A DNA stretch of 23,209 bases from positions 1 to 23,209 of IMG/VR virus record IMGVR_UViG_3300032282_006051; one strand, given 5' to 3'. Under the pieces are notes generated by a model. That model ran no database searches. It saw only the letters and a program-made list of their open reading frames with translations, and had not been told where the DNA came from. Position numbers and translations under genes: made by a program. Positions 1,221 through 22,290 of this stretch are shown one piece after another (the stretch's first letter is position 1; every line of letters begins with the position of its first letter). This DNA is from a virus.

Positions 1221-1242
1221 GTTTATTTTTATTATTTATCTG
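1221..1242 (-). promoter_or_regulatory. Late-promoter-like AT element (minus strand)
   Basis: On the minus strand this stretch reads CAGATAAATAATAAAAATAA. Its core GATAAATA (1233-1240) ends 23 nt before the ATG of the 317-1210 gene. It closely matches the element before the 1284-2603 gene (CAGATAAATA) and the elements before many plus-strand genes, which argues against chance AT content alone. It resembles the T4 late promoter TATAAATA; activity is inferred. Confidence 0.45.
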
Positions 1243-1283
1243 TTTGGATAAATAAGAAGACCGATCTTTAAATATCTTATGAG

Positions 1284-2603
1284 TTACTTGTTTATGACTT
1301 TAGTAGACTTATCGATCTCTGAATTTAGGGTAAACTTTCCTCTATTCACCAAGCATTCAGTCAGGTTAGCATTAATTGTTTTTGCATCAGGGTTATCTAA
1401 GAAACTGGAAGTAATCTCATTTGATTCACCTAAATAATCACAATCTAATAATTTAGAAAATTTAACAGAATTATTTGAAAAAATAGAACATCCTTCTAAT
1501 TTAGAGTTTCGGATAATGCAATTTTCAAATAGACAATTATTAACGTCTCCTTCAATCTCACAATTAAAAAATTCTACCCCTTCTAGTAGAATACTTCTTG
1601 TTATTTTAGCGTTCTTTATTTGAAGTCTAGCTCGTTTAGTATCATAATTAATAGTAGCCTCAGTTATTCCGCCACCAATAATTAATCTAAATATTTTTTC
1701 TCTAATACGTGGATATACTGATTCTATTAAGTGAGGCGCCTGGCTTAAATCAACATATAAATCAATTTCTGGAAAAGCTGACCTGAATCCTAATATTGAT
1801 CGAGTAGAATCAATCGCTCTTCTAAAATCTTTAACCATTTCAGAGATTCTAATCTTTTCCTGATTTGAATAAGTGTAATTTTCAGTAAGAGTCGTATATA
1901 GATGCTCAATAATAATGTTTAGGGTCTCAACTGCCTCCTTCTTTTTTCGAGTATAATCCTTACCTGAAATATAATTCACATTAAGTTTACCGCTAGCCAA
2001 TTGAGAAAAATCAGTTGCAAAGAAATCAGAATTTGGAAAATTTAATTCAATTGAGTCTCCGCGTTCAACAATAGATTCAGTAAGCACCATATCATAGAGT
2101 CTTTTAGGCTGAACATATTGAAAATGATTTTGATAAATTAATCTATTCTCATTTTCAGGTTGTGGCCAAAGTTCAAATAGTCTCTTTTCATCTAGACTTA
2201 TTAAATACTTTAGACGATTTAGTTTGTTTACATGAGTTGATAATTGAAGAGCATTTTCATTAAGTTTAATAGTAGTTTTTACTCTACACCGTTCAGTAGT
2301 AAATCCAATTGCTTCAATTATATTTGATACTTTTAAATACATGTGAACTGCCTCTTGATATGGCATCAGCCCAGTACTAAGCTGCATTTCTTTATATCCA
2401 TTAGAATAAGTAGGTGCAAGTTTAAAAGTTTCATTTGTTGGATTAAAGTCACTCTTTACTTCGCTGAACCATTTTATCTTTTTACCTAGTGCTCTGGAGA
2501 TCTTTGCAGCAGCATCCATTTTTCTCATAGGCGAAAAGAATTCAAAACAGAATGAAATCTGAGAGTTATCATATATGCTTTTCTTATCTAATGATTTAAA
2601 CAT
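1284..2603 (-). CDS. Amidoligase-like N-terminal region fused to pentapeptide-like helix
   Basis: A 439-residue soluble protein with two visible parts. Residues about 15-165 follow the layout of phage-borne putative amidoligases (COOH-NH2 ligases of the glutamine-synthetase fold): FCFEFFSP at 18-25, KSDFNPTNETFKLAPTYSNG at 50-69, an EMQLSTG segment at 72-78, PYQEA at 81-85, CRVKTTIKLNEN at 106-117, then LNRLKYL and DEKRLFELWP. In the usual family the second and third blocks carry acidic and H-x-H residues; here I see Gln in EMQLSTG and KTTIK where histidines are expected, so the site may be altered. Residues about 330-400 are a Cys/Asn-rich pentapeptide-like repeat (NNCLFENCIIRNSKLEGCSI) expected to form a right-handed beta-helix. 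It lies beside fibre-like genes and has its own upstream AT element. The family call rests on motif layout from memory and is moderate; a purely structural role is possible. Confidence 0.45.
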   Translation of the reverse strand: MFKSLDKKSIYDNSQISFCFEFFSPMRKMDAAAKISRALGKKIKWFSEVKSDFNPTNETFKLAPTYSNGYKEMQLSTGLMPYQEAVHMYLKVSNIIEAIGFTTERCRVKTTIKLNENALQLSTHVNKLNRLKYLISLDEKRLFELWPQPENENRLIYQNHFQYVQPKRLYDMVLTESIVERGDSIELNFPNSDFFATDFSQLASGKLNVNYISGKDYTRKKKEAVETLNIIIEHLYTTLTENYTYSNQEKIRISEMVKDFRRAIDSTRSILGFRSAFPEIDLYVDLSQAPHLIESVYPRIREKIFRLIIGGGITEATINYDTKRARLQIKNAKITRSILLEGVEFFNCEIEGDVNNCLFENCIIRNSKLEGCSIFSNNSVKFSKLLDCDYLGESNEITSSFLDNPDAKTINANLTECLVNRGKFTLNSEIDKSTKVINK

Positions 2604-2610
2604 TACTCTA

Positions 2611-2633
2611 TTTTTCTTTATTCTATTTATCTG
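2611..2633 (-). promoter_or_regulatory. Late-promoter-like AT element (minus strand)
   Basis: The minus strand reads CAGATAAATAGAATAAAG here. The core GATAAATA (2624-2631) ends 21 nt before the ATG of the 1284-2603 gene, nearly the same sequence and spacing as the element before 317-1210. Confidence 0.45.
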
Positions 2634-2684
2634 ACTAGATCCTTTTAGGAAATGTAAGTATTAAATTAATAGGCTGAATATGGA

Positions 2685-2710
2685 GATAAATGAATAAATA
2701 AAATAAATAA
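2685..2710 (+). promoter_or_regulatory. Tandem late-promoter-like AT elements before the baseplate operon
   Basis: Three overlapping repeats of the (G/A)ATAAAT(G/A) type occur in a row: GATAAATG at 2685-2692, AATAAATA at 2693-2700 and AATAAATAAG at 2702-2711. The middle one ends 20 nt before the ATG at 2720. This is the densest cluster in the window and heads the longest operon. Promoter function is inferred from similarity to TATAAATA and position. Confidence 0.45.
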
Positions 2711-2719
2711 GATTGCTAC

Positions 2720-4384
2720 ATGGCAAAAGTCACAGACGATTTTAAAGTATTTACTAGACTTAGCATATACGTTGAGGATCTATTGTCACAGACGATAAAT
2801 TATCTAACTACTAAGTTTAATCAAAGTAGAGCGGTCTTTACTTCCGCTTCTCCATTCGGCCAGCTCCTACTAGTTGTTGAGAACCTAACTCAACTTGTAT
2901 TTTATTATATTGAGGACTCAATTACTGAGTTAAATATCAATGAAGCAACTAGATTAACTTCAATTTACTCCTTAGCTACTCTTGCTGGTCACAACCCAAG
3001 TAGAGCAGTTGCTGCCTCTGGCGAAATAAGCTTATCTACCTTGGCTGGTGCAGGTGAACCGCCTACTGATTTTGTAATTATACCTAACTTAACTAGAATT
3101 AGATGTAAAAATAACGGGCTGACCTATGTATTAGACCTTCCTCAAGATGAAATTAAGTTTTCTTTTAATGGAACTAATAATGGTCTTCGAATAGGTATTA
3201 GACAGGGTATAATTGAATCTCAAACGGTCACTGCTAAAGGAGAACCTATTGAAAGTTTTGCAATAGGCAGTCCACAAAACTACTACATTGATAACTTCAT
3301 GGTTAATGTTCAAGTAAATGGAGAAAAATGGACAAAGTATGATTCTATAATTGACATGCCTAGGGGAGAAAAGGCATACTTAATTAAAACTGGAATAACT
3401 ACTGGTGTTGACCTTTTCTTTGGAAATGGAAATTATGGTAGAATACCTACTCGTGGAGCAGATATTCTAGTTGAATACTTGGTGACTGAAGGTTCAAATG
3501 GAAATATCCGAAGTAATGATTTAAGCAGTATTAAATTTGAATTTGTAGATACCGGCTTTAGTATTCTAGGAGATGAGATCGATCTAAACAAATATATTGA
3601 AATAACTACGTCAAATGCACCTTTCTTTGGGACGAATGCCGAAGATTCTAAATTGACTCGATTGCTTGCACCAAAACAGTCTAAAAGCTTTGCACTAGTT
3701 AATGTTGATCACTATGAAAACGTATTAAGAAAATTAAAACTTTTCTCTATTATAAATGTTGCATTAGATGAAGTCGACCCTAGAATGTTGAATCTATTTC
3801 TTATACCTGACATTAGAAAGACTTTTAGTGTAGCGCAAGATTATTTTAGTGCAAGTATTGATAGATTTATGATGAATGATTATCAAAAGAATCAATTACT
3901 GCAATATCTTGAAAAGTCAGGAAGCAAACTTATCTCAACTGATGTTCAAATAATTGATCCTATTCCTAGTGAATATGTCATAAATACTTCAATTATTGCG
4001 TTCGATGATGTCTCTACTGATATTATTAAGAGAGATATCCTAAATAATTTAGGTGAATACTTTATTCAAAATACTCGATTCACTAGAATACCTAAAAGTG
4101 ACTTAATTAAGATAGTTGAGGAGGTAAATGGAGTTGACTCTGTCTCAATTAATATTATATCTAAAAAGAATGAACTTGCAAAAATTCAAAATCCTTCTGC
4201 ACCGGATACTGGTATTGATGAATTTAACGATATTATTGTCCTATATCAAGAACTTCCTATAATTAGAGGAGGATTTACTGATCGTTATGGACAAGTATAT
4301 TCTACTGGAATAACGCCTGATTCATTAGGTCCAGTGAATATTCAAATTAAAGAGATTGTGCCTAGACCAAAAAAGATTAATTAA
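2720..4384 (+). CDS. Baseplate wedge protein, gp6 / baseplate J-like
   Basis: A 554-residue protein whose central region carries the hallmark of baseplate J-like / T4 gp6 wedge proteins: LFFGNGNYGRIPTRG from about residue 232, followed by an ILVEYLVTEGSNGNI strand-turn. In this family the pattern (F-G-D/N-G-x-Y-G-x-x-P, then a Y-x-x-T-x-G-x-x-G-N run) marks the core beta domain. The helical N-terminus (residues 10-100) and mixed alpha/beta C-terminus also fit; the C-terminal part (about 410-500, VISTSIIAF-like strand then helix DIIKRDILNNLGEYF) looks like the repeat domain of J-like proteins. Wedge proteins assemble six-fold around the hub of contractile tails and link to the tail fibres. It is the first gene of the rightward operon, followed directly by a small gene and the terminase pair, which is consistent with late expression. 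Confidence 0.75.
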   Translation: MAKVTDDFKVFTRLSIYVEDLLSQTINYLTTKFNQSRAVFTSASPFGQLLLVVENLTQLVFYYIEDSITELNINEATRLTSIYSLATLAGHNPSRAVAASGEISLSTLAGAGEPPTDFVIIPNLTRIRCKNNGLTYVLDLPQDEIKFSFNGTNNGLRIGIRQGIIESQTVTAKGEPIESFAIGSPQNYYIDNFMVNVQVNGEKWTKYDSIIDMPRGEKAYLIKTGITTGVDLFFGNGNYGRIPTRGADILVEYLVTEGSNGNIRSNDLSSIKFEFVDTGFSILGDEIDLNKYIEITTSNAPFFGTNAEDSKLTRLLAPKQSKSFALVNVDHYENVLRKLKLFSIINVALDEVDPRMLNLFLIPDIRKTFSVAQDYFSASIDRFMMNDYQKNQLLQYLEKSGSKLISTDVQIIDPIPSEYVINTSIIAFDDVSTDIIKRDILNNLGEYFIQNTRFTRIPKSDLIKIVEEVNGVDSVSINIISKKNELAKIQNPSAPDTGIDEFNDIIVLYQELPIIRGGFTDRYGQVYSTGITPDSLGPVNIQIKEIVPRPKKIN

Positions 4385-4385
4385 C

Positions 4386-4631
4386 ATGGTAAAAAATAGC
4401 ATATATCGCCCAATATTTGATCGTAGAGAAAAAAGAGAAAATACTGGATTTGATTATAAAGGTCAAATCTTAAAAAAGACTCTCTCTTCTCAAATGTTTG
4501 GTGCACATCCTCTACTTGATTACTTGATACAACAAGTTGAAAGTATTGTATATGAGTGGGTCGAGGCAGTAAAACAAATAAAGATAACTGCTAATCCGGC
4601 ATTGGATAAGTACGAAAATAAGATTAGATAA
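4386..4631 (+). CDS. Small unknown protein between baseplate and terminase genes
   Basis: An 81-residue protein starting at the ATG at 4386, one base after the stop of the baseplate gene. The frame could be extended 10 codons upstream to a TTG at 4356, but this would overlap the baseplate gene, so the ATG is preferred. It begins MVKNSIYRPIFDRREKREN and ends in a helical half with YLIQQVESIVYEWVEAVKQI. There is no signal peptide, membrane segment or metal-binding motif. The next gene starts at the base after its stop codon, implying translational coupling. I do not recognise the family. Its position suggests a small baseplate or packaging accessory protein, which is a guess. Confidence 0.7.
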   Translation: MVKNSIYRPIFDRREKRENTGFDYKGQILKKTLSSQMFGAHPLLDYLIQQVESIVYEWVEAVKQIKITANPALDKYENKIR

Positions 4632-5366
4632 ATGGGTAGTAATAAAGCTGGAATGGGCCGAGAGAATCGTGCTCACCTCAGAGACGAGATTCAGTCTCTA
4701 TTGGGATCAATTGGGACTGAAACACATGGTGACATGGTGATTGACACTGAGATCTCAGAAAAAACAAGACCTGAAAGTCCATATGACTTTGAGGAGATGA
4801 GTAATCAATTCACAGTAAAAGCTAGAGAGATTACTGATTCACTATTTAAAAATTTCGTTGATATTGGAATTTTTGAAAAGAACGACTATGCTCGACATAA
4901 AAAAGAGCTAGATACAATTAATATTTCCAACCTATTCTTTCAATTAAAAACTATTAAGATCACTATAATTAAGGTGATGGAGGAGATAACTTCGGGGAAT
5001 ACTCATCCTCGATTGATTGAGGTAATGGGTCAGTTGCAGGATAAAATGGCGTCCATTACAAAGATGCAGGCAAACTATGTTCTTTTTCTTGAGGATACGT
5101 ATCGTCAATTAAACTCAGCTGCACCAATAAATCCAGATTCAGAAGTAGTAGGTTCAGACTCAAAAGAGGGCCAGTTCTTTATTACAGTAGGTACTAAAAA
5201 CCTAATTAATAGTCTACCTACTGAGCCTAAAACTGACGAAATTAGAGTTCCTACTGGGAGTTTAATTGATCCTACTAAAAAGTCAGATTTAATGCGAGAG
5301 AATAATATCCAAATAACTGATGATGATGGAGGCGATGATTTTATGGATATTACTGAAATAATTTAA
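4632..5366 (+). CDS. Candidate small terminase subunit (TerS-like)
   Basis: A 244-residue, largely helical, acidic protein. Its start codon directly abuts the preceding stop and it ends 4 nt before the large terminase start. A central run of helices (about residues 75-160, with FQLKTIKITIIKVMEEI and MGQLQDKMASITKMQANYVLFLED) could form the coiled-coil oligomerisation core seen in small terminases, and the C-terminus is very acidic (ITDDDGGDDFMDITEII). T4-type small terminases (gp16) lie next to the large subunit, bind the packaging start site and activate the ATPase. I see no clear helix-turn-helix at the N-terminus, and sequence conservation in this family is too low to call from motifs. The assignment therefore rests on position, size and helical content; a structural protein is the main alternative. 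Confidence 0.45.
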   Translation: MGSNKAGMGRENRAHLRDEIQSLLGSIGTETHGDMVIDTEISEKTRPESPYDFEEMSNQFTVKAREITDSLFKNFVDIGIFEKNDYARHKKELDTINISNLFFQLKTIKITIIKVMEEITSGNTHPRLIEVMGQLQDKMASITKMQANYVLFLEDTYRQLNSAAPINPDSEVVGSDSKEGQFFITVGTKNLINSLPTEPKTDEIRVPTGSLIDPTKKSDLMRENNIQITDDDGGDDFMDITEII

Positions 5367-5370
5367 CTCA

Positions 5371-7350
5371 ATGAGAGACGTCATGACAAATGGTGGCGCT
5401 TTCAGCCATCGTAAACTATCTAACCTATCCGGTTCACCTGAAGATACTAATACTTCAATGTGGACAACTATCAGAATCAATAAATTACTTGATGATATTG
5501 AAAATGATGGATTTGATATTAAAGGCTTGCATAATTCTCCGTTTAAGGACAACGATATTAACCTAAAGCGAGGAAATTTACCTTTTGAATATACGCCAGA
5601 CGAGTGGGAAGAACTTAAGAGATGTAAATCAGACATACTCTATTTTGCAGTAAATTATTGTAGGATCCAAACTGGTGATGGTATTCAATTAATTAGAGAC
5701 ACTCCAGGACTTAGAGATTATCAAGAAGAAATACTTGAATCTTTTAAAGGAAACAAATTTAATATCTTAATGGCAAGTCGTCAAACTGGAAAGTCAGTTA
5801 CCTCTGCTATTTTTATCTTATGGTATCTCCTATTCAATTCTGATAAGACTGCACTAATTGTTGCTGACAACTTTACTACAACCCGAGAATTATTAGATAA
5901 GTTTAGAATATGTTTAGATGGCCTACCTTTCTTTATGAAACCTGGAATCAAGCATATTAACTCAGGAAATATTAAGTTTGATAATGATAGTCGAGTTGTT
6001 GGTAGAACAACCACTAAAAAATCAGGTATCGGTTTATCAGTAAACGTTTTATACATTGATGAGTTTGCCCATATTGATGAGGCAAAACTAGATGAATTCT
6101 ATCGAGCTATCCTACCAACAATCACAGCCGATCCAAACGCTAAGGTGATTATCACATCTACTCCAAACGGTAAGAATAAATTTTATGAAATTTGGGTTGA
6201 TGCAATTGCTAGTAAAAGTGATTACGTTCCACTTAGAGTGGACTGGTGGCAAGTTAAGGGTAGAGATGAAGCATGGAAACAGGCAGTAATTGCTAATATG
6301 GGATCAGTTGAAGATTTTAACCAGGAATATGGACTTCAGTTCTTCTCGTCAGATCAATTATTACTAAATTCAAATGAGCTAAAGAGACTCTATAATATTA
6401 AAGCAGATTATGTAAATACAACTTTTGCACTTAGTGAAGATCGCCAATGGATCAATGAGTGTTTGACTGTTCACCCAAACTATGCAAAGAGAACTCCAAC
6501 TGACTATAAGAATGATAAAGCAAAATATGTGTTTTCGGTGGATACTGCAGATGGTACTGGTGGTGACTATTCAGTATTGAACATTTATAAAATTGCATGT
6601 CTACCAGTTGGCGAACTTTTAAAAAAGAAAGAGGCTATTCGCGGAGAGATTGATACTACCTCACTTGTACAAGTTGCAACTTTTAGAACCAATGAATACG
6701 ATATCAATGAATTTGCAGCAGGAGTAGAATACATAACGTATAATTTATTCAATTCAGAAAATGTTAGAATTGTTCTTGAAATGAATCATAAAGGGGAGAT
6801 AATAAAAAATAGGTTAGAGAGTAATGATAATTATTGGCCTTCTCAATTAGTACACACCAAACATACTGAGATGGCAGTAGTATCAAAACCGGGACTTAGA
6901 CTTGGCCCAACTAATAAGATTAGATATTGCGAAAAATTCAAATACTTTGTAGAAGTTAAAAAGATCATACCTAACGATTTTCTAACAGTTATGGAATTAA
7001 TGGCATTTGGTAAGACTAAAGGCGGATCCTACCGTGGACAAAATGGAAATGATGATCTTGCCATGACTTGTGTTAATTTGGCACCTGCACTTGATTCTAA
7101 TCAATTATGGGAGCTTTCAATAGAAACATATGAAGCAACTTCATTAGAGTATCGAAAGGAAGTTGAGGAAAAAATATTTAATCTATTTAGGTCTAACTTA
7201 AATAAACCAGCATTTGATTATGACACATTAAGAGAAGTAAATGCACCATCAAATGGAGCAGAAAAAAACTTAGAACCGCGTCGCCATGTATTTGATATTG
7301 AATCATTAAATCAAATGCAAAAAATTAAGAATAAATTCTTTAAAAGCTAA
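5371..7350 (+). CDS. Large terminase subunit (DNA-packaging ATPase and nuclease)
   Basis: A 659-residue protein with all motifs of a T4 gp17-like large terminase. The ATPase has a Walker A-type segment MASRQTGKS at 134-142, Walker B VLYIDEF at 226-232 with D230-E231, and coupling motif ITSTPNG at 261-267. The nuclease has the first acidic cluster FSVDTADGTGGDYS with D391, a second candidate acid in VLEMNHKGE near E470, and the third pair GNDDLAM with D561-D562, the usual RNase H-like triad. It translocates DNA into the prohead through the portal and cuts the concatemer. The N-terminal 130 residues are typical adaptor sequence. A second ATG four codons downstream (5383) is an alternative start; neither has a Shine-Dalgarno sequence. 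The candidate small subunit lies immediately upstream. Confidence 0.95.
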   Translation: MRDVMTNGGAFSHRKLSNLSGSPEDTNTSMWTTIRINKLLDDIENDGFDIKGLHNSPFKDNDINLKRGNLPFEYTPDEWEELKRCKSDILYFAVNYCRIQTGDGIQLIRDTPGLRDYQEEILESFKGNKFNILMASRQTGKSVTSAIFILWYLLFNSDKTALIVADNFTTTRELLDKFRICLDGLPFFMKPGIKHINSGNIKFDNDSRVVGRTTTKKSGIGLSVNVLYIDEFAHIDEAKLDEFYRAILPTITADPNAKVIITSTPNGKNKFYEIWVDAIASKSDYVPLRVDWWQVKGRDEAWKQAVIANMGSVEDFNQEYGLQFFSSDQLLLNSNELKRLYNIKADYVNTTFALSEDRQWINECLTVHPNYAKRTPTDYKNDKAKYVFSVDTADGTGGDYSVLNIYKIACLPVGELLKKKEAIRGEIDTTSLVQVATFRTNEYDINEFAAGVEYITYNLFNSENVRIVLEMNHKGEIIKNRLESNDNYWPSQLVHTKHTEMAVVSKPGLRLGPTNKIRYCEKFKYFVEVKKIIPNDFLTVMELMAFGKTKGGSYRGQNGNDDLAMTCVNLAPALDSNQLWELSIETYEATSLEYRKEVEEKIFNLFRSNLNKPAFDYDTLREVNAPSNGAEKNLEPRRHVFDIESLNQMQKIKNKFFKS

Positions 7351-7398
7351 ACTTTTTTTAGTATCATAGTAATAAATTACTGTATAACATCTAGAAAT

Positions 7399-7707
7399 AT
7401 GAAGATTCTTAAATTTCAAGGCGATATCGGGCTGGATGACGTATTTAACCGTCATAAAATAGAGATCTACGATAATCTCTTACAATCGATAAAAAATCAC
7501 TATTTAGATAAGAATCACGCGGAAGTCACTGTGATTAAGATCTCAATAAACGAATCAGAATATACAATTAATTTATCTAGGGATAAATTCATAAGCGGAT
7601 TAGAGGGAGCAATCTCTTTTTATGAGGCATGTGAAGAATACGAAAAGTGTGCAGAATGTTTAAAAATCATCAATACACTTAAAAAAAATAATACAATAGA
7701 GGTCTAA
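7399..7707 (+). CDS. Small unknown protein upstream of sigma gene
   Basis: A 102-residue soluble protein beginning [21 protein letters not shown] middle strand pair ([20 protein letters not shown]) is followed by a helical C-terminus containing [16 protein letters not shown]. Three cysteines in that helix (C-x6-C-x2-C spacing) could bind a metal or form a disulphide, but this is not a known zinc signature. It stands 5 nt before the sigma factor gene and after a 48-nt gap that has an AATAAATT element 21 nt before its ATG. It is probably co-transcribed with the sigma gene. I do not recognise the family; a regulatory partner of the sigma factor is possible but unsupported by any motif. Confidence 0.75.
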
Positions 7708-7712
7708 AAATT

Positions 7713-8339
7713 ATGGGGTATGAATCAGCTAACACAAAGATTAACGAAAGAATTCAGGAAATATCTGAACGTCTGCTTAAGAAACAAAGCACTGAACGTG
7801 AAAAAAATGAATTGGCTCAGCTGATTTATCCAAAACTTAAATATTATATTTGGAAATTTTGTAAAAATGAAGTCGATACTGAAGAGGCTCTTCAATTTAC
7901 ATTAAAGAAGATTTTTAAAAATATTACACAATTTGATTTTGAAAAAGGTCGATTCACTACTTGGATTTATACAATAGCTAGAAATGAAACCTTATTTTAC
8001 CTACACCAATTAAAAAAGAACTCCCATTACGATATTGATACAATGTATGGTAAAATCGATAGACCTGATGATTTAACTGATGAAGTTAATGGCTTTACTG
8101 ATATCGATGACATCTATCAAACTACAGTAGATGAAATATTCCTAATTGAAGATCCTCTACTTAAAAATATTGCCATCGATAAAATGATCAAAAATAAGAA
8201 GGTGAAACAAATTGCACTTGACTATGAGATCAATGAAAATACTGTAAAAACCAAACTTCGTAAAATAAGATCTGATATTAAATTTTCAGTCCTAAAGAAA
8301 AATCCTCAATATGAGGAAAAAATAAAACAAATACTATGA
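7713..8339 (+). CDS. RNA polymerase sigma factor, ECF-type (sigma-2 and sigma-4 only)
   Basis: A 208-residue protein with a sigma-2 region at about 37-103 and a sigma-4 region at about 150-192. Sigma-2 shows the core-binding and -10 recognition helices, including [20 protein letters not shown] (74-93), which matches the 'F...k..F..WL..IArN' pattern of ECF sigmas. Sigma-4 has a helix-turn-helix in [20 protein letters not shown] (164-183), with E173-N174-E175 in the turn and a basic recognition helix. There is no sigma-1.1 or sigma-3. Phages with T4-like lifestyles use a small sigma (T4 gp55) to redirect host polymerase to late promoters; this gene sits beside the terminase and could play that role here. 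Its stop overlaps the start of the next gene by 4 nt (ATGA), as in sigma/anti-sigma pairs. Function in late transcription is inferred. Confidence 0.88.
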
Positions 8340-8797: not shown

Positions 8798-8810
8798 TAA
8801 ATTCTTACTT

Positions 8811-8822
8811 CTTTAATAAATA
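8811..8822 (+). promoter_or_regulatory. Late-promoter-like AT element
   Basis: AATAAATA at 8815-8822 ends 15 nt before the ATG at 8837, within a 39-nt gap rich in A and T. It matches the element found before other gap-following genes in the window. Confidence 0.35.
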
Positions 8823-8836
8823 AAAAAATAAATCAT

Positions 8837-9127
8837 ATGAAAAAATTAAACACATTTATAACAAATCAATATCCTAAAATATTAGTGATTTTAAGTATCC
8901 TTATTTTCCTTAATACTTGTGGAAATCCAAACAAATCCCTTACTAAAAAGGTTGATACTCTATCTCAAAAAATTGATTCATTGGAATTAATTATTGTAAC
9001 TGGTAAAGATCTAAAAATAGAAGGTCTTAGATCTGAGAAGAGAATGATACAATCAACTGATCGTAAAATACTAGACGTAAACCGTCAATCTGAGATCGAT
9101 AAAGAGATCAGTGAGTTAGAAAAATAA
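8837..9127 (+). CDS. Small membrane-anchored coiled-coil protein
   Basis: A 96-residue protein with a basic N-terminus, one hydrophobic helix (KILVILSILIFLNT, about residues 14-27) and a charged helical remainder that looks like a coiled coil (KVDTLSQKIDSLE and later KEISELEK). Cys28 follows the hydrophobic segment in LNTC. This is a weak lipobox because Asn and Thr replace the usual small residues, so it may be either a lipoprotein or a plain N-terminal anchor. The rest would lie in the periplasm. Its neighbours are two other membrane proteins (8336-8797 and 9136-9966). Small anchored coiled-coil proteins of this shape occur among phage lysis and spanin components, but no diagnostic motif is present, so no function is assigned. 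Confidence 0.75.
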   Translation: MKKLNTFITNQYPKILVILSILIFLNTCGNPNKSLTKKVDTLSQKIDSLELIIVTGKDLKIEGLRSEKRMIQSTDRKILDVNRQSEIDKEISELEK

Positions 9128-9135
9128 TAGCAATT

Positions 9136-9966: not shown

Positions 9967-9980
9967 AATAAATAATAAAA
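9966..9980 (+). promoter_or_regulatory. Late-promoter-like AT element
   Basis: AATAAATA at 9967-9974, followed by ATAAAAAAA, ends 20 nt before the ATG at 9994. It begins right after the preceding stop codon and matches the element seen elsewhere in sequence and spacing. Confidence 0.4.
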
Positions 9981-9993
9981 AAATTACTGGCTA

Positions 9994-10521
9994 ATGATAC
10001 CCAATTTAAACGAGATATGCGACTGTTGTGGTGGTTATGAAAATCAACCAATACTTCAACTTTTTGATAACAAGTGTTTTGGTATCGTTGACGGTAAGGA
10101 AATAACAGAAGATTTTTGTATAAAAGATTTTGCTTTTCCTACTGACGGTTATTCATGTGTAGGAATAACTCTTCAAGAAGACGGAGGAAATACTACCCTA
10201 TTTGATAATCAATTACCTGTTCCTTTAGTATCATTAGAAAGCGGTAAAGCATACGCTAGGGGAATCTTATTAAAGATTACATACCCTACCAATGATTTAA
10301 ACTCTGAGGAAATAAGCATCATTGATAAAAACGTAGTATTAACAATTGAAACATATGATGGAGTCTCAACTGACTATCCGCTATATAATTTCTTTTCGAT
10401 GTTTACTAACCCAAAATCAAATGATCCGTCACAAATAATAAATAAAATAGAATTAAGTAATCCAAATACTAATTATTCAATTAGAATATCTGCTTTAATT
10501 TTATTTGGAAATGCATTGTAA
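9994..10521 (+). CDS. Unknown virion-type protein with N-terminal cysteine cluster
   Basis: A 175-residue soluble protein with predicted beta-rich content. The N-terminus holds a cysteine cluster, EICDCCGGYENQ (Cys9, Cys11, Cys12), with Cys28 and Cys42 and Cys55 further along. There is no signal peptide, which makes disulphides less likely unless in the assembled particle. Repeated strand-turn segments such as VVLTIETYDGVSTDYPLYNFF and LSNPNTNYSIRISALILFG suggest a beta-sandwich. It starts a run of three closely spaced genes (9994-11410) of similar virion-like character, heading for the gp26-like baseplate gene. Baseplate, neck or tail-completion proteins are usual in this position in T4-like phages, but the family is not recognised. 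Confidence 0.7.
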   Translation: MIPNLNEICDCCGGYENQPILQLFDNKCFGIVDGKEITEDFCIKDFAFPTDGYSCVGITLQEDGGNTTLFDNQLPVPLVSLESGKAYARGILLKITYPTNDLNSEEISIIDKNVVLTIETYDGVSTDYPLYNFFSMFTNPKSNDPSQIINKIELSNPNTNYSIRISALILFGNAL

Positions 10522-10535
10522 AAAATTTTAAAGAA

Positions 10536-11423: not shown

Positions 11424-11450
11424 TAGTAGAACCAACAACAACTTTTTGTA

Positions 11451-11460: not shown

Positions 11461-11473
11461 AAAACTATTTTTT

Positions 11474-12463: not shown

Positions 12464-12668
12464 GCTTAATAAAGACTTGGCATTGAAGCTTAACCAATCG
12501 TTTGATACCCTATATGAAATGGAATACATGGAATATTCTCTACTCTTAAATATCGTAAATGATGAGATAGACAAAAAGAATAATCCGGACGATGTATTCA
12601 CTAACATAATGAGCGGTAATAATCAGCCATTGAAAGTTAATCTTCCAGATAACCTAAAACTTAAATAA
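12450..12668 (+). CDS. Small helical protein overlapping gp26-like gene
   Basis: A 72-residue protein starting at the ATG at 12450, 14 nt inside the end of the gp26-like gene. The frame is open 32 codons further up to 12354, but that region is read as the gp26-like C-terminus (including its Cys pair), so the downstream ATG is preferred. The sequence MNLFKLNKDLALKLNQSFD then MEYMEYSLLLNIVNDEIDKKNN is mostly helical, and ends in a loop (SGNNQPLKVNLPDNLKLK). It is the right size and position for a tail or baseplate assembly chaperone, but there is no diagnostic motif. Overlap suggests translational coupling rather than frameshifting. Confidence 0.6.
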   Translation: MNLFKLNKDLALKLNQSFDTLYEMEYMEYSLLLNIVNDEIDKKNNPDDVFTNIMSGNNQPLKVNLPDNLKLK

Positions 12669-12680
12669 ATAATAAAAATA
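12664..12680 (+). promoter_or_regulatory. Late-promoter-like AT element
   Basis: AATAAATA at 12664-12671 is followed by ATAAAAATAA and ends 20 nt before the putative TTG start at 12691. Sequence and spacing equal those before the 9994 gene, which supports the chosen start. Confidence 0.45.
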
Positions 12681-12690
12681 ATCAGATATT

Positions 12691-14385
12691 TTGAGTGTTG
12701 ATCTGTACATAAGTAAGGCTACTGAAGGGATTCAAAAGAGAATTAAAGAGAATATTGAATTTGCAAAAGCTAATCCATATCCAAAAGATGAACTAAAATC
12801 TGCCCTTGATTCAGCAGGACAAGACTCAGCACTATCTAAATTATACACACTGGATGGCCAAACTGAGAATTTTATATTTCGAACTCCTGAGGTAACTGCT
12901 GCAGCCAAAGAACAGGCTGACATTTATCCTGGACTATGGGATAAATTATCAAAGGGTAATAAAGGAATAGAGAAGCTTAAGAAGAATAAAGACTTAGAAA
13001 ATATTAAACCGGCAAATGAATTAAATTCTGAGTTTGCTAAGTTTATAACTGAACTAAATAAATCTATTAGTTTAGGAGCTAAAATTAAAATAGACGAGGT
13101 ATTCTCAGATAAGACTGATAATGATGCGTTTGATGAATACTTGGATGTATTTAACATTAGTCTAAATACGTATGGTGCTGACTCTCTAGTTAGATCAGCA
13201 TTTACCGAATTGTTTACTAAAAAACCAGTAGAAGTTCCAAAACCAGTAGAAGTTAAATCGTCTACAGTTAATGATGCACCAGTTTCTACCGAAGGTAAGA
13301 AAACCTCTACTGCTTCAATAAATTCAACGACTGCTAGTCAAGTTCCGTCTAATTCTACTGCAAGTAATCCAATAAATCCGACCTCAACTAAATCTTCTGA
13401 ACCGACTGCTGTCACTAGTTTAGACGGAGGCGTAACATCAAAGGCTGGAGAACTTCAAACTGAGAATATTCTAGACACGAACCAAAGCCAGGCAATAAAT
13501 GTTAATCTTGAAAATAAACCTACTGAATCTAAACCTGCTGCTGGCGTTACTTCAAATTCAACAACTGCCACAACTACCTCAAACTCAACTACCGTAAATG
13601 ATGTAAATTCTGCTTCTTCTGTAACGAGTAATCCATCGAATACTTCAAATAATACTGGAGTAACTGGTGATAAGAATATAATGAAGGTTGAAAATACAAA
13701 TAATCAATCTTCATCAAGTACAGTAAATGAGAGTAAACCGGAAAAAGAAAAAGGTGGCTTTTTATCTAAAGTAGGAAATTTTGCAAAGAAGGCAGGTGCC
13801 GCTTTAAATCTACCATCAGTCGGTGAACTTGGAGAACAGGCAAAGGGTTTATTTGGAGCTACTGGTGCAAATATTAGTTCAAGAATATCTGAGGTTAAAA
13901 ACTCATTTGCAATTAATTCAAATAAAGAAGAATCAAATTCTTCACCTACTTCATCTACTGCAACAAATTCAGTAAATTCTTCAAATACTACGGCAACTAC
14001 TAACCCTAATGATATACTAGCTGTTCCTAATACTGGAACAACTTCAACTACTTCTGATATTCTTAAGACTGAGACTCAGACTGCAATGAATGTTGAGCAA
14101 AATAAACCAGCCGTCGCTGCTACTCAGTCTCCGGTAACTAACCAAACAACTCAGAATACAAATCCGGCAGTATCGGCTGTTTCAAATACATCAAACTCTC
14201 AAAATACATCTTCACCAACCACTACAACATCAAATGTTTCTCAAAATACTCAATCTGCGGTGCAACAACCTGGTGCTCCTGCAGGCGGTGGTGTAAATGT
14301 TGATACAAATCAACTTGCTCAATCTATTACTCGATTAGAGAGAATATTAATAAGTGGAATAGAAGTAACAATAAAAGACGCATAA
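12691..14385 (+). CDS. Large Ser/Thr/Asn-rich virion-type protein (non-ATG start)
   Basis: A 564-residue protein. The frame opens only at 12682 (stop TAA at 12679-12681), with no ATG before about codon 331, so translation probably begins at the TTG at 12691 or another non-ATG codon. Residues 1-175 are a compact helical domain (IQKRIKENIEFAKANPYPK, ELNKSISLGAKIKIDEVF). About 178-345 is a low-complexity Ser/Thr/Asn/Pro linker. About 350-412 has an amphipathic helical segment with GFLSKVGNFAKKAGAALNLP, then a second low-complexity linker. The last 30 residues (VDTNQLAQSITRLERILISG) are a short helix and strand. It is preceded by an AT element and followed at 1 nt by a coiled-coil gene. A tail or baseplate protein with flexible spacers is plausible; the family is not recognised. 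Confidence 0.8.
   Translation: MSVDLYISKATEGIQKRIKENIEFAKANPYPKDELKSALDSAGQDSALSKLYTLDGQTENFIFRTPEVTAAAKEQADIYPGLWDKLSKGNKGIEKLKKNKDLENIKPANELNSEFAKFITELNKSISLGAKIKIDEVFSDKTDNDAFDEYLDVFNISLNTYGADSLVRSAFTELFTKKPVEVPKPVEVKSSTVNDAPVSTEGKKTSTASINSTTASQVPSNSTASNPINPTSTKSSEPTAVTSLDGGVTSKAGELQTENILDTNQSQAINVNLENKPTESKPAAGVTSNSTTATTTSNSTTVNDVNSASSVTSNPSNTSNNTGVTGDKNIMKVENTNNQSSSSTVNESKPEKEKGGFLSKVGNFAKKAGAALNLPSVGELGEQAKGLFGATGANISSRISEVKNSFAINSNKEESNSSPTSSTATNSVNSSNTTATTNPNDILAVPNTGTTSTTSDILKTETQTAMNVEQNKPAVAATQSPVTNQTTQNTNPAVSAVSNTSNSQNTSSPTTTTSNVSQNTQSAVQQPGAPAGGGVNVDTNQLAQSITRLERILISGIEVTIKDA
13221..13254 (+). repeat. 16-bp tandem direct repeat in coding sequence
   Basis: AAAACCAGTAGAAGTT occurs at 13221-13236 and again at 13239-13254, 18 bp apart and in frame. 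It encodes the peptide repeat KPVEVPKPVEVK at the edge of the low-complexity linker. A recent duplication in the linker is the simplest explanation. Confidence 0.8.
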
Positions 14386-14386
14386 T

Positions 14387-15407: not shown

Positions 15408-15410
15408 CTA

Positions 15411-17414: not shown

Positions 17415-17435
17415 TCAATTGAATATAAATCCTAA

Positions 17436-17459
17436 CAATAAATAATTAGCGATTTATTG
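17436..17459. repeat. Perfect 8-bp inverted repeat in intergenic gap
   Basis: CAATAAAT (17436-17443) and ATTTATTG (17452-17459) are perfect inverted copies with an 8-nt loop. It lies between the stop of 15411-17414 and the AT element before 17491. All-AT stems are weak, so a terminator is doubtful; the left arm itself contains an AATAAAT-type element and the right arm its inverse. Confidence 0.35.
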
Positions 17460-17480
17460 AGATAAATAAAAAAAAATAAT
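17459..17480 (+). promoter_or_regulatory. Late-promoter-like AT element
   Basis: GAGATAAATAAAAAAAAATA at 17459-17478 contains GATAAATA (17461-17468), ending 23 nt before the ATG at 17491. It is nearly identical to the minus-strand elements before 1210 and 2603. Confidence 0.45.
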
Positions 17481-17490
17481 AAGGCACGAA

Positions 17491-19086
17491 ATGAAAGGCT
17501 TCGTAGACAAGATATTAACTGAACTTAAGACTAATTCTACTCTTAAAACAGACCCGCTTGTAAAACTTTTAACAGAATCTATTGATAAATCTATTTCTTT
17601 AGGTGAAACTACTCCTTCTATCTATGAGAATTTGAAGAGTGGTCTTACTTCAATAAATGCTAGAGTTAAAAGCAAACAATTAACCACAATCCTAGAACAA
17701 TTCACTAAGGTTGAGACTACTTCTGAATCTAAAACTTTTGATATTTCAAAGAAAGCAAACCTTTCTGAAAAATTAAATGCAATTAAAGAATCTAAATCTG
17801 GCACAAATCCGATAGTTAAAGGTCAAGTAGAAGTTTTTGAATCTTACTTGAATAATGGAACTCCTGATTTTGCATTATGCGAAGGCTTTATTAAATTCTT
17901 CTCAAATCATAAATATGATTCAACTATTAAAAAGCAAGTTGAAAAGGTTCAAAAATACATTAATGAAAATACATCAGAAATACTATTTTTGAATGCTATC
18001 TACACAATGGATGCAATGCCAAACCAGCAATATGCAGCAGTTAGTTCAGATCTTAAAAATATGTTGATTGGTGAATCATATACATCAGATATTCTTAAAC
18101 TTAAATATGGAACAACTGTTCCTATTGTTAATCAACTAGTAAATGATTTAAGACTTCTTGAATCTCAAACATTGGGATACTTTACATTAGGTGGAGGTGA
18201 TTCATTTACAAAAGTGACTAATCTGATCACACCTGCGACGAAAGCAAAAGATGGAATGATTCTTTATATGGACAACCGATTTGTTTCAATCCGTGAATCC
18301 AGAGGACTTACTGGTAAAGAAACTAAGGTACATATCGATGGTAGCTTTAAGATTGCCGACGTTGATCCAAATTACGTTAAAGAAAAGTTTCCAAAATTCT
18401 ATAGTGTAGCTGAATCTTTCGCTACTTTAGGATTTACTAAAAATGTTGATGGAACTAGTGTAGATTCTTCAGCAATCAGAAACTTTAATATTAGTTTTAA
18501 AACCAATGAAGAGAGAGAATTAGATCTTTATCTAAATGAGTCTAAAGTTTCTAACTTGGATGAAATTAACTTAATGGAAGCTCTTTCTTTGGAAAGTAAT
18601 GATGTTAAGAACAGAGTAATTACTCTTTTTGAAAACTCAAGTAACTTATTTAACTTTGATTTCATTAAGGAATTAACTAATGATCGTACTTTAAGCGAAG
18701 CATTTGTTCTTAAGTTAAATGAAGAATTCTATATTTGTGAGAAATTAAATTCAGCAGATAAAGAATGGAGAAAAATAGATGAGTACGAAATGTATGAATT
18801 CTGCATGGAAAAATTCAATTACGATATTAGTCCTATCTTTAAAACTCAAATTGATGAAAAGATTGATGCTTATAAAAAGATTGAAGCAAGAAAGAATGCT
18901 ATTTCAGTAGATATTACTAAACTTGAAGAAACAATGGAAAAACTTCAAAAGGCAATTTCAAGTCCAGATCTTGATTCAGAAGCAACTAAGAAACTTACTG
19001 GAATTAGAGAATCAATTGAATCTACTATTACTGCTCTTAAAAATGATTATGTTGGATTAGACCTATTCAAAAAGGATATAAAATGA
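17491..19086 (+). CDS. Large helical protein of unknown function
   Basis: A 531-residue soluble protein starting after a strong AT element. It is helix-rich in the first 220 residues (VDKILTELKTNSTLKTDPLV, EILFLNAIYTMDAMPN), has a more mixed middle (GMILYMDNRFVSIRESRG, then HIDGSFKIADVDPN) and ends with a coiled coil (about 465-522, ISVDITKLEETMEKLQKAIS). There is no signal or membrane helix. Its Lys/Glu/Asn-rich, low-tryptophan composition and size would fit an abundant internal or capsid-associated protein, but no family motif is visible. The stop overlaps the next start (ATGA at 19083-19086), so a tiny lipoprotein is coupled to it. Confidence 0.8.
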   Translation: MKGFVDKILTELKTNSTLKTDPLVKLLTESIDKSISLGETTPSIYENLKSGLTSINARVKSKQLTTILEQFTKVETTSESKTFDISKKANLSEKLNAIKESKSGTNPIVKGQVEVFESYLNNGTPDFALCEGFIKFFSNHKYDSTIKKQVEKVQKYINENTSEILFLNAIYTMDAMPNQQYAAVSSDLKNMLIGESYTSDILKLKYGTTVPIVNQLVNDLRLLESQTLGYFTLGGGDSFTKVTNLITPATKAKDGMILYMDNRFVSIRESRGLTGKETKVHIDGSFKIADVDPNYVKEKFPKFYSVAESFATLGFTKNVDGTSVDSSAIRNFNISFKTNEERELDLYLNESKVSNLDEINLMEALSLESNDVKNRVITLFENSSNLFNFDFIKELTNDRTLSEAFVLKLNEEFYICEKLNSADKEWRKIDEYEMYEFCMEKFNYDISPIFKTQIDEKIDAYKKIEARKNAISVDITKLEETMEKLQKAISSPDLDSEATKKLTGIRESIESTITALKNDYVGLDLFKKDIK

Positions 19087-19202
19087 AAATTCTAGTAATA
19101 ATTATTATTCTTTTAAGTTTAGCTGCATGCGCTTCTTCTAAAAAAGGAGGATGCGATGCATACAGTAAGATCGATAATGACAAGAAAAATATTAACATAT
19201 GA
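19083..19202 (+). CDS. Tiny lipoprotein overlapping both neighbours
   Basis: A 39-residue protein read from the ATG at 19083, overlapping the previous stop by 4 nt (ATGA) and overlapping the following gene in another frame. It begins MKILVIIIILLSLAACASSK: a lysine, a hydrophobic stretch, and an exact lipobox LAAC, with Cys16 as the lipidated residue. The mature part is only 24 residues (CASSKKGGCDAYSKIDNDKK and a few more) and has a second Cys. Short mature lipoproteins with CASSKKG-like ends are typical of Bacteroidota genomes. An outer-membrane lysis component (o-spanin) or a small periplasmic anchor would fit. It is easy to miss because it is short and overlapped. Confidence 0.7.
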   Translation: MKILVIIIILLSLAACASSKKGGCDAYSKIDNDKKNINI

Positions 19203-19902
19203 TCAGTTCTCAAGAGGCTTCCAACTGGGCGAGTCTCTTGATCTATCTTGGGGTTCTAAAATATTTGAGATTGGAGATCCTAGGCATGCGATCACTCCAA
19301 TCGATTGGGAACTAGTTGATGAGAGAGATCGGGAGACAGATTATAGGTTTTCACTCAATCCAAGCACAGACTATCTAGTAAAACTAACTAGGACAGTTGA
19401 CGCAAATGACGTGAACATTGAGTTCTATGCAAATGGCGACAGAGATTCAGTAACAAATGATGGAAATCCGCTGACTGTGATGTCAACTGTGATCGACATA
19501 GTCAAGGATTACTTGAATAATCATCCCGATATAGCTTCATTTTCATTCATTCCAGCAAAGGCTGATTATGATGATGACCGTAGGTTAAAGTTATATTTAA
19601 GATACATAAGAGGCCACTTTGATAGTCCTAGAATCACGAAGCAAGAATTTGGTGGAGGTTATGTTTTAATTAAGGTGATTCTTAATGGATCAATCAAAGA
19701 ATCGCTTGATCCATATATAGAATCCAAGTTAAAATTTAAAATTGGCGATCAAGTTCAAGTAAAAGATCGAATTGGAAAAGTAACGGCATTCAATGGAAAA
19801 GAATACTTAGTGATGATTGGTAGTAAAAATGAGAGAGTTCCAGAATCACAAATTGAAAAGATAAGTCAACTAAAGAAAAAGAAACCTGCGCGTAAGAAAT
19901 AA
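19156..19902 (+). CDS. Phage protein of unknown function with SH3/KOW-like C-terminus
   Basis: A 248-residue protein. The first ATG (19156) follows GGAGG by 6 nt, but an ATG at 19177 gives a start MTRKILTYDQFSRGF that looks like the N-terminus of other phage proteins, so residue 1 is uncertain. Residues about 70-160 have strands VKLTRTVDANDVNIEFYANG then helix TVIDIVKDYLNNHPDIASF and FIPAKADYDDDRRLKLYLRY. This strand-helix-strand layout recurs in uncharacterised phage proteins. The last third has FKIGDQVQVKDRIGKVTAFN, a KOW/SH3-like barrel, then a Lys/Arg-rich tail (KKKKPARKK) that could bind DNA. It overlaps the small lipoprotein by 47 nt. A strong terminator follows, so this ends the operon. 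Confidence 0.7.
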   Translation: MHTVRSIMTRKILTYDQFSRGFQLGESLDLSWGSKIFEIGDPRHAITPIDWELVDERDRETDYRFSLNPSTDYLVKLTRTVDANDVNIEFYANGDRDSVTNDGNPLTVMSTVIDIVKDYLNNHPDIASFSFIPAKADYDDDRRLKLYLRYIRGHFDSPRITKQEFGGGYVLIKVILNGSIKESLDPYIESKLKFKIGDQVQVKDRIGKVTAFNGKEYLVMIGSKNERVPESQIEKISQLKKKKPARKK

Positions 19903-20000
19903 AAATTATTAGTTTTAAAATAGCGAAGGATGTAAATTTTTACATCCTTTTGTTTTATTTGTAGTTTTTTCTCAGTATAATAACTAAAAATTTCTATAGT
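19903..20000 (+). other. Gap holding a terminator and a possible AT element
   Basis: A 98-nt gap with a hairpin terminator (19926-19960) and then AT-rich sequence leading to the next ATG. TATAATAA at 19976-19983 lies 17 nt before the ATG at 20001 and is a weaker version of the common promoter-like element. Confidence 0.5.
19926..19960 (+). terminator. Rho-independent terminator
   Basis: AAGGATGTAAA (19926-19936) pairs with TTTACATCCTT (19939-19949), an 11-bp inverted repeat of which at least 8-9 bp can form around a small loop. It is followed by TTGTTTTATTT. It lies 24 nt after the stop of the 19156 gene and ends the virion operon. Confidence 0.8.
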
Positions 20001-20276
20001 ATGAAAAAATCAATTGTAATCGGCCCTATCCAAAAGGCCAAACCTATGACAGAAAGAGCGTCAATCTTGGAACAACGCTTATCTAAAATGAAAGTTGGAA
20101 ACTTTTTCGAAGTTACTGGATTATCTGGCAAAACTGAAGTTCTTAACTTTAGAGCATCTGTAAGTTATTTCTCAAAGAAGAATAGTGTTCGTGTATCTAC
20201 ATCAATGGTAAACGGAGTTCTTAAAGTTGAAAGAGTAAAATCTGGTAAAACTAAAGAGACATCCAAAGTACAATAA
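20001..20276 (+). CDS. Small basic protein, unknown
   Basis: A 91-residue, Lys-rich protein starting after the terminator. A helix (ERASILEQRLSKMKVGNFFE) is followed by strands and a turn, GLSGKTEVLNFRASVSYF, then FRVSTS-like NSVRVSTSMVNGVLKVERVKS. This last stretch, with a basic strand and a 'G.lkV.Rv' ending, resembles small phage and plasmid proteins of unknown function that may contact nucleic acid. There is no metal-binding motif. It is followed at 17 nt by the methyltransferase gene, preceded by a weak AT element. Function unknown. Confidence 0.65.
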   Translation: MKKSIVIGPIQKAKPMTERASILEQRLSKMKVGNFFEVTGLSGKTEVLNFRASVSYFSKKNSVRVSTSMVNGVLKVERVKSGKTKETSKVQ

Positions 20277-20282
20277 TAAATA
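20275..20282 (+). promoter_or_regulatory. AT element before methyltransferase gene
   Basis: AATAAATA at 20275-20282 overlaps the preceding stop and ends 12 nt before the ATG at 20294. It is closer to the start than other copies, so a leader rather than a promoter role is also possible. Confidence 0.25.
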
Positions 20283-20293
20283 AACACTTTTAA

Positions 20294-21094
20294 ATGGATA
20301 CTCGAATAGATTTTAACACTGCCAAAAAGTTTGATCAACTTGAATTGATTGATTGGAAAACCAAATATGGTGATTTCCAATTTTATATCCGTAAAGGATT
20401 AAATGAAATTAAGTACAATGTTGGTACGAACGTTTCAAAAAGTCCAAAGAGCGGCGAATATATTAAACCATTGACTTCTGCTGCATATGGACCAGAAATG
20501 GACGTAAATGGAGTTTTTAATCAAGAGGATACATGGTTAGATATCGGTGGACATATTGGTCTTTTTGCAATCCGCATGGCTCGACAATTTCCTAAAATCA
20601 AAGAGGTCATTTCATATGAAGCTCTTCCGCATAATGCATCTTTTGCTTTAGAGAATATTAAAGTAAATAGTGTTGAATCAAACTGTTCAGTTGTACAAAA
20701 AGCAATTGTTCCAGGTGCAGAAGATACAATAGACTTCTTTATTTCAAATGACTCTGGAAAGCATTCAATTCTTCCAATTAGAGGTCGTGAGATCCTACAC
20801 GTTCCAGCAATCAATATTAATGATGCAATCAATGAACATGGGGCAACGGCTATTAAAATGGATGTTGAAGGAGCTGAATACGAACTAATTAAGGCAGTTA
20901 CTGATTGGTCTAAAGTTCGAGTAATCATTATTGAGTATCACTTTATGTACAAGCCTTTGAAGACTAATCGTGTTCAAAAATTCCAAGAGATCACAGCAAT
21001 CCTTGAACAAAACTTTGATGTTGTTCGTAAGATTGAAGCAGTTGAGTATGGTAAAAACTTTATCACTCATATTGTTGCTCTTAAAAATGATTAA
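20294..21094 (+). CDS. FkbM family methyltransferase
   Basis: A 266-residue soluble SAM-dependent methyltransferase. Motif I is WLDIGGHIGLFAIRM (81-95) with the Gly-rich SAM loop G85-G86-H87-I88-G89, preceded by D83. The acidic post-I residue is E in VISYEALPHN (the ribose contact of this family). The FkbM signature is IKMDVEGAEYELIK, with D190, E192, G193 and E195. A further strand VIIIEYHFM is typical of the family. FkbM enzymes O-methylate sugars and related hydroxyl groups, so the likely target is a glycan or an attached sugar. It lies upstream of a glycosyltransferase-like gene, separated by a terminator, and the two could modify the same product. It is the most confident non-structural call in the right part of the window. 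Confidence 0.9.
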   Translation: MDTRIDFNTAKKFDQLELIDWKTKYGDFQFYIRKGLNEIKYNVGTNVSKSPKSGEYIKPLTSAAYGPEMDVNGVFNQEDTWLDIGGHIGLFAIRMARQFPKIKEVISYEALPHNASFALENIKVNSVESNCSVVQKAIVPGAEDTIDFFISNDSGKHSILPIRGREILHVPAININDAINEHGATAIKMDVEGAEYELIKAVTDWSKVRVIIIEYHFMYKPLKTNRVQKFQEITAILEQNFDVVRKIEAVEYGKNFITHIVALKND

Positions 21095-21111
21095 GATCAA
21101 ATAATTTAAGG

Positions 21112-21144
21112 ATGGGCATCTAGATAGGTGCCCATTTTTTATTT
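21112..21144 (+). terminator. Rho-independent terminator
   Basis: ATGGGCATC (21112-21120) pairs with GGTGCCCAT (21127-21135) around loop TAGATA (one G-T pair), followed by a run of T (21135-21140) and ATTT. It has the highest GC stem in the gap after the methyltransferase and ends that transcript. Confidence 0.88.
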
Positions 21145-21177
21145 AAAACCTCACGACATATTTTAAGTAAATATTAT

Positions 21178-22242
21178 ATGAAAAGTTTATATGCATATTT
21201 TGGTCTACTTGACCTACACCAAATTGATTCTCCAGGACATTCGTTATATCAAATAGGATTAGTTGATTCATTACGTGAATCATTTGGAGAAGAAAAATTT
21301 GATTTCTATTCATATTATCCAGAAGAGATAATCAAATCAGCTGACATTCAAGGCTTTCCGGAGACAGATCTAGGCCGACTGTTTCATAAATATCGAACTG
21401 AATTATTTGATCGCCCTATCCATACTACTGACGAGTTACTACAATTAATTTCTCAAAAAACATATTCTAAATTATATCTAAAGGCTAGATTTAGAAATCT
21501 TTCAACTCTTTCTAAGAAATGGAAAGATGCTAGGAATTTTGATAGAATTGTTCAATGTGCAATTGATGCAGGATATACAAAGGACGAAATAATTATATTA
21601 GATACTGATCTTTCTCTTTCAGATAAATTCGTCGAACAAACTAAAGATTTTGTGACTATCTTGATTCCATCAATTGATTTTCCAGGAATATCTAATATGT
21701 TTCTGGTAGATTGTGTAAATTTAAACCTTACTCAATCCAAAAAAGGAATAAGCAGTGTCTTTTATGGAAATATTGATACTTCAAAATACAAGAGCGGAAA
21801 CTCAAAAAGTGAGATCTTACCGAATGCTCTTGAATGGATTGCACGTAATCACTGGTCAAGGGATGAAGATTTTTATCTAGTTTGCAAGAAGAATGATTTT
21901 GACCTAGTTTCCGATAAATTAACACAATCTACTTATCATGTAGATAGGAAAGATCGTATTAAGATTTGGGAAACTTTAGAGTCTTCTAGAATCATGATCA
22001 ATATTACTAAAGAGAAATATAATGAACGAAAGTTTATTCCAGCTAGAATATTTGAAGCAATAATCTTTGGTATGATTCCAATCTCATATAAATTTGACTT
22101 CTTATGTCCAGCATTCTCTTTTGAAAATCTTGAAGATCTTTCTGAGATTTATATGTATCTTAATGAATGTGATGAGGCTGGTCTAGAACAAGCATATAAG
22201 CATTTTATAAATTGTTATATTAATAGCTTAGACACAAAATAA
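21178..22242 (+). CDS. Glycosyltransferase-like protein (GT-B type)
   Basis: A 354-residue soluble protein. The N-terminus has DSPGHSLYQIGLVDSL (17-32), resembling the donor-side start of phage glycosyltransferases in which a Gly-His-Ser loop opens a Rossmann-type fold. The C-terminal half has SRIMINITKEKYNERKFIPA then ARIFEAIIFGMIPISY (289-304), matching the 'R..E....G.ipi' motif that holds the donor sugar nucleotide in GT-B enzymes (E293, G298). An alpha-beta alternation in the middle (IIILDTDLSLSDKF, FVTILIPSID) supports the fold. The family is not certain; DNA-modifying or virion-glycosylating roles are both known for phage enzymes. The ATG at 21178 follows the terminator by about 34 nt. 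Residues 105-130 are Lys/Arg-rich helix. Neighbours are an FkbM methyltransferase and a secreted protein. Confidence 0.6.
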   Translation: MKSLYAYFGLLDLHQIDSPGHSLYQIGLVDSLRESFGEEKFDFYSYYPEEIIKSADIQGFPETDLGRLFHKYRTELFDRPIHTTDELLQLISQKTYSKLYLKARFRNLSTLSKKWKDARNFDRIVQCAIDAGYTKDEIIILDTDLSLSDKFVEQTKDFVTILIPSIDFPGISNMFLVDCVNLNLTQSKKGISSVFYGNIDTSKYKSGNSKSEILPNALEWIARNHWSRDEDFYLVCKKNDFDLVSDKLTQSTYHVDRKDRIKIWETLESSRIMINITKEKYNERKFIPARIFEAIIFGMIPISYKFDFLCPAFSFENLEDLSEIYMYLNECDEAGLEQAYKHFINCYINSLDTK

Positions 22243-22264
22243 TTTTATCTTATCATATGTCGAT

Positions 22265-22272
22265 TATAAATA
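22265..22272 (+). promoter_or_regulatory. Exact TATAAATA element
   Basis: TATAAATA at 22265-22272 matches the T4 late promoter consensus exactly. It ends 18 nt before the ATG at 22291 but only 6 nt before the ATG at 22279, supporting 22291 as the start. Confidence 0.5.
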
Positions 22273-22290
22273 ATATAAATGGTTGACACT

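Follow-up and report, generated by a model that had tools for sequence, protein, structure and literature searches.

The late promoters of bacteriophage T4, which are served by gp55, gp33, and gp45, carry an ATAAATA box and have no -35 element (PMC2988020, PMC7892883). The 8-bp T4 box, TATAAATA, is located at positions -13 to -6, T being the usual base at -13, although nine sites have A there (PMC2988020). The bases of this box are read by gp55 through stacking of Y97 on A(-12), contacts of A(-9) with N13 and H95, and a bond between T99 and A(-8) (PMC7892883). The late promoters of cyanophages, NATAAATA (PMC2984593), share the same core. Our search of the literature available to us for work on late promoters of Bacteroidota T4-like phages, Flavobacterium phage MaF61 included, found none. 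Here we describe ATAAATA elements in the window, a virus record of 23,209 bases, which on sequence grounds are very probably an extended form of gp55-dependent, T4-type late promoter belonging to an uncultured T4-like phage. The likeness to T4 late promoters was pointed out in the first-pass annotation of this DNA, and is supported by shuffled controls, the lack of a -35 signal, the class of gene served, conservation, and a gp55-type sigma factor in related phages.

Many genes of the window have no family match. Those that do include a gp6-like baseplate gene (2720-4384, + strand; phrog_219, 1e-28), a gp17-like terminase (5371-7350), an ECF-like sigma factor with region 2 and a weak region 4 (7713-8339, + strand; Pfam Sigma70_r2, 1e-11), and an FkbM-type methyltransferase gene (20294-21094; Pfam, 2e-11). 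A scan with the terminase yielded 31 related viral contigs (identity 30-96%), the nearest named phages by terminase, at ~30-35% identity, being uncultured huge phages, PAU, Flavobacterium phage MaF61, and Tenacibaculum phage PTm1. The nearest proteins to the ECF-like sigma factor include those of Prevotella Lak phages, and orthologues are present in all four close relatives. Scanning host genomes for the window terminase revealed none that carries it. From these terminase and sigma neighbours, and the absence of Shine-Dalgarno sequences, the host is probably a member of the Bacteroidota. Genes and their starts were called with a simple hexamer-based caller written for this analysis, and genes following a gap of 15 nt or more (gap genes) were compared with genes abutting their upstream neighbour.

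The window holds 16 matches to the element over both strands, compared with a shuffle mean of 15 (sd 4.2), so that whole-window counts are uninformative and the case rests on position. A reversed-pattern control is equally uninformative, since ATAAATA reads identically backwards. Every match listed in the first-pass annotation is present at the coordinates given there, and its expectation that some would arise by chance, but not their placement, is borne out. ATAAATA is found within 45 nt upstream of 8/13 gap genes, on both strands, and 0/12 abutting genes, as had been proposed, with dinucleotide shuffling of each gap giving a mean of 1.5 and a maximum of 4 in 300 trials, and with 9 sites in the upstream zone against 0.16 expected under a uniform spread. 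The same holds for five related contigs, with gap against abutting genes at 49/121 and 1/79 in G001, 25/87 and 1/59 in G002, 14/46 and 0/40 in G003, 10/24 and 2/24 in G004, and 18/108 and 2/67 in G005, and for T4 between 75 and 120 kb (12/20 and 0/25), with the early region of T4, as a negative control, showing 2/40 against 1.5 expected. The observed number was reached by no dinucleotide shuffle (300 trials) of the window, G001-G005, MaF61, or T4. Across the window and four related contigs, 106 of 291 gap genes and 2 of 214 abutting genes have ATAAATA 6-32 nt before the start, although these contigs are not mutually independent and pooled p-values overstate their independence. ATAAATA ranks first among the 7-mers found in upstream gaps of G001, G003, and T4, and upstream gaps contain its reverse complement more rarely. 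As G005 has a GC content of 54%, AT-richness does not explain the enrichment.

Alignment of 99 sites on ATAAATA reveals a unit longer than the core box, R-ATAAATA-A-N-W-W-AAA, with a purine before the core (position -13; A 46%, G 44%), A after the core in 94%, and a downstream AAA in fixed register (92, 99, and 94%). The first-pass annotation had described an extra A-G shared by some copies, which is better stated as the purine at -13, and the near-invariant AAA was absent from it. A weight matrix, seeded on the exact core and rescanned with variants permitted, scores at least 8 bits before 101/291 gap genes and in 0.8% of base-shuffled gaps, with 100 of these 101 sites having the exact core, and the AAA tail pattern is present in 82/101 zone sites compared with 25/168 other occurrences of ATAAATA. 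Between about -45 and -7 upstream of the box, divergence from background does not exceed 0.17 bits, with no conserved -35 box at the fixed distance that an ECF sigma promoter would need. The window sites have 10-22 nt, mostly 19-22 nt, between the end of ATAAATA and the start codon. Overall, this spacing centres on 17-20 nt, and although it varies, the AAA keeps register with the box. The leaders have no Shine-Dalgarno sequence. Given that T4 boxes sit at -13 to -6, the AAA would occupy -1 to +2, placing the predicted transcription start at the 99% conserved A, with predicted leaders of ~9-17 nt.

Of the nine main sites in the first-pass annotation, eight hold and one, 20275-20282, does not (-5.1 bits; 1/5 orthologous gaps). 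Seven score at least 11.9 bits and are kept in relatives down to ~48-55% protein identity. On the minus strand, the predicted late promoter of gene 1210-317 (1226-1240) consists of GATAAATA and a AATAAAAA tail, with +1 at 1227 and a leader of ~17 nt, its core (1233-1240) scoring 18.7 bits and recurring in 10/10 orthologous gaps. An inverted repeat, TTATTTATC-N6-GATAAATAA, surrounds this promoter (1232-1254), and is kept in close relatives only. That of gene 2603-1284, also on the minus strand (2617-2631; core 2624-2631, 14.8 bits, 12/12), has a predicted +1 at 2618 and a leader of ~15 nt. On the plus strand, the predicted promoter of the gp6-like baseplate gene lies at 2693-2707 (+1 at 2706; 14.4 bits; 12/12), near a second copy (2702-2709) that is missing in distant relatives, and that of gene 8837-9127 at 8815-8829 (+1 at 8828, leader ~9 nt; 11.9 bits; 9/10). 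Gene 9994-10521 has a predicted promoter at 9967-9981 (+ strand; +1 at 9980; 18.0 bits; 6/10), which is lost in the most distant relatives, gene 12691-14385 one at 12664-12678 that overlaps the stop codon of the preceding gene (+ strand; +1 at 12677; 17.2 bits; 3/3), and gene 17491-19086 one at 17461-17475 (+ strand; +1 at 17474; 18.5 bits; 5/5). The eighth, at 22265-22279 on the plus strand, is a probable late promoter (TATAAATA) of a signal-peptide gene, with a predicted +1 at 22278, and is also found in the one relative compared. The start called for this gene, 22279, overlaps the predicted transcription start; the site fits with a gene start at 22291, not 22279, giving a spacer of 18 nt, and 22291 is probably the correct start.

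The four weaker versions proposed before genes 7399, 11474, 20001, and 21178 did not stand, with scores of at most 1.0 and ATAAATA in 0/31 orthologous gaps. The gaps before 7399, 11474, and 20001 carry other conserved sequences, and genes 11474 and 21178 are each preceded by a hairpin followed by a T-run, resembling a terminator for the gene before. A second promoter-like class, (A)GTATAATA with TTTAA ~18-22 nt upstream, occurs before gap genes without ATAAATA, including the window gaps upstream of 7399 and 20001 and 20 sites in related contigs; its two-element layout might suit the ECF-like sigma factor. Separately, at least 14 copies of GTTATATTTACT-TATAACTTAAAAACA, with repeated GTCTCT and GACTTTT upstream, precede small genes between 60 and 80 kb of G002 (L045), perhaps forming an early-promoter array.

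The genes that carry the element were compared by class among the gap genes with a PHROG match in G001, a 176-kb relative. The element is found before the head maturation protease, tail sheath, and head closure genes and the gp6 orthologue of window gene 2720, and is absent before the genes for DNA polymerase, two helicases, UvsX, SSB, ribonucleotide reductase, thymidylate synthase, exonuclease, endonuclease, and ligase. This amounts to 4/5 structural genes against 0/10 replication or nucleotide genes (hand-computed p ~0.004, from small numbers), the exception being the major head protein gene, which lacks the element and lies 28 nt behind the protease gene.

These elements resemble T4 late promoters in the ATAAATA box, the lack of a -35 element, the AT-rich sequence just downstream of the box, their placement before virion genes on both strands, and the gp55-type sigma factor, here found in relatives. 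They very probably represent a promoter kind known from T4 with a fixed extension of its own, differing from T4 in the purine, instead of T, at -13, an A at -5 and an AAA at -1 to +2 that are both near-invariant, the shorter distance from box to start codon (17-20 nt compared with 27-28 nt), and the absence of Shine-Dalgarno sequences. In cyanophage S-RSM4, ATAAATA precedes 7/25 gap genes against 0.9 expected, however no fixed AAA is apparent in the sites printed, and the spacing is longer and looser (19-49 nt). MaF61, whose terminase is ~31% identical to that of the window, has ATAAATA before 19/101 gap genes against 4.7 expected, with G at -13 in 14 of the 19, and its gp55-like protein (L076, ORF75, 54739-55476) is matched weakly (E 0.002) and is split by a large insertion. 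No ATAAATA enrichment was seen in LR756500 or in Lak-B9, for which gene calls are poor.

G001 and G003 each encode a 132-residue protein with matches to the T4 late sigma family (phrog_234; E 7e-20 and 4e-19, respectively) and to annotated cyanophage late sigma factors. These proteins retain the T4 residues N13, R57, F86, Y97, and T99 (residues from PMC7892883), with H95 replaced by F, as in cyanophages, and L54 by A. They lack the C-terminal region that bears the clamp-binding motif in T4 gp55. The short gp55 proteins of G001, G003, and LR756500 (L083, L084, and L103) share a C-terminal (V/I)YSI, which might substitute for the clamp-binding tail. Searches of the relatives for a T4-like clamp (phrog_223, PF02916, PF02767) found none, although a diverged clamp could be missed by them, and MaF61 ORF136, annotated as 'sliding clamp', gave no match as a query and carries an ATPase-like GNSGLGKS motif. 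No gp55 was detected in G005, although this contig has the box. As the window spans only 23 kb, the gp55 gene of this phage is out of view, and we infer its presence from two relatives.

In the model that we favour, each element is a single -10-like box, R(-13)ATAAATA(-6), after which come A(-5), a run of W-rich sequence, and the AAA (-1 to +2). Such elements would stand at the head of transcription units on either strand, which, as far as gene functions are known, are mostly those of virion genes. Late in infection, the host RNA polymerase core together with a phage gp55-type sigma factor would melt the box, with the sigma factor reading the flipped non-template-strand bases at -12, -9, and -8, and transcription would start from the +1 A, ~9-17 nt ahead of the start codon. 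Start site, timing, sigma factor, and host are all inferred here.

The ECF-like sigma factor was our first candidate reader of the promoters, its gene lying in the window with orthologues in each close relative, and was set aside after gp55 was found in G001 and G003. A sigma factor with a weak region-4-like domain would suit a two-element promoter, whereas the box has no -35 partner. Moreover, the relatives also encode a gp55 whose contact residues are conserved, and in T4 the same box is served by gp55 alone. As the gp55 proteins of G001 and G003 keep the residues that contact the promoter, gp55 is favoured, and it is unlikely that the ECF-like protein reads these elements in its place.

The element could also act in translation, as an A-rich leader aiding ribosomes independently of Shine-Dalgarno sequences, which are indeed missing from the leaders, with every gene class being A-rich around -10 to -17. 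This is contradicted by the near absence of the element from abutting genes, its absence from replication genes with gaps, and the AAA, whose register is fixed to the box and not to the start codon, and we regard a translation signal as very unlikely. Chance matches in AT-rich gaps would account for the whole-window count, which equals expectation, and seemingly for 20275 and the weaker sites, however as an explanation of the whole set chance is refuted by the per-gap shuffles and orthologous conservation, with recurrence of the element in a 54% GC contig rendering it more improbable still; of these alternatives, it is the one to which we give almost no credence.

Beyond this clade, ATACATA or GATATATA, differing from ATAAATA at -9, seems to take the place of the element in other phages that have relatives of gp55. 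ATACATA, and not ATAAATA, is enriched in the gaps of PAU (L105; 12/30) and PTm1 (L072; 10/30), whose gp55-like proteins have SFFT in place of the AYFT of others. A set of 52 contigs whose gp55 is 38-47% identical to that of G001 shows enrichment of GATATATAA, with ATATATA before 123/305 gap genes and an A again near the predicted start. Among gp55-bearing viral contigs L120-L187, it is GATATATAA and not ATAAATA that is enriched upstream of gap genes. The -9 base and gp55 residues 96-100 agree in 50/50 classified sequences, comprising 44 contigs classified by rule and six by hand (T4, S-RSM4, G001, and G003 as A; PAU and PTm1 as C), with the scan pattern, NAFAY[FY]T, having biased which gp55 relatives were fetched. 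It is possible, though somewhat less likely than not, that T4-type late promoters diversified among environmental phages by a switch at -9 (this clade and T4 having ATAAATA, PAU and PTm1 ATACATA, and ~40 other gp55-bearing contigs ATATATA) with the gp55 pocket changing alongside (AYFTQ, SFFT, and AYFTE or AYYT, respectively), giving one sigma-promoter pair per lineage. The tree of the classified sequences requires two changes only, and common descent therefore explains the agreement between base and residues equally well.

Bacteroidota differ from E. coli in their promoters and translation signals, and our findings suggest that T4-type late transcription works in hosts that are probably Bacteroidota. 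With the extended element, late operons and probable transcription starts can be called from sequence alone for a group of uncultured T4-like phages, and the variation at -9 makes sigma-promoter co-evolution at one base directly testable.
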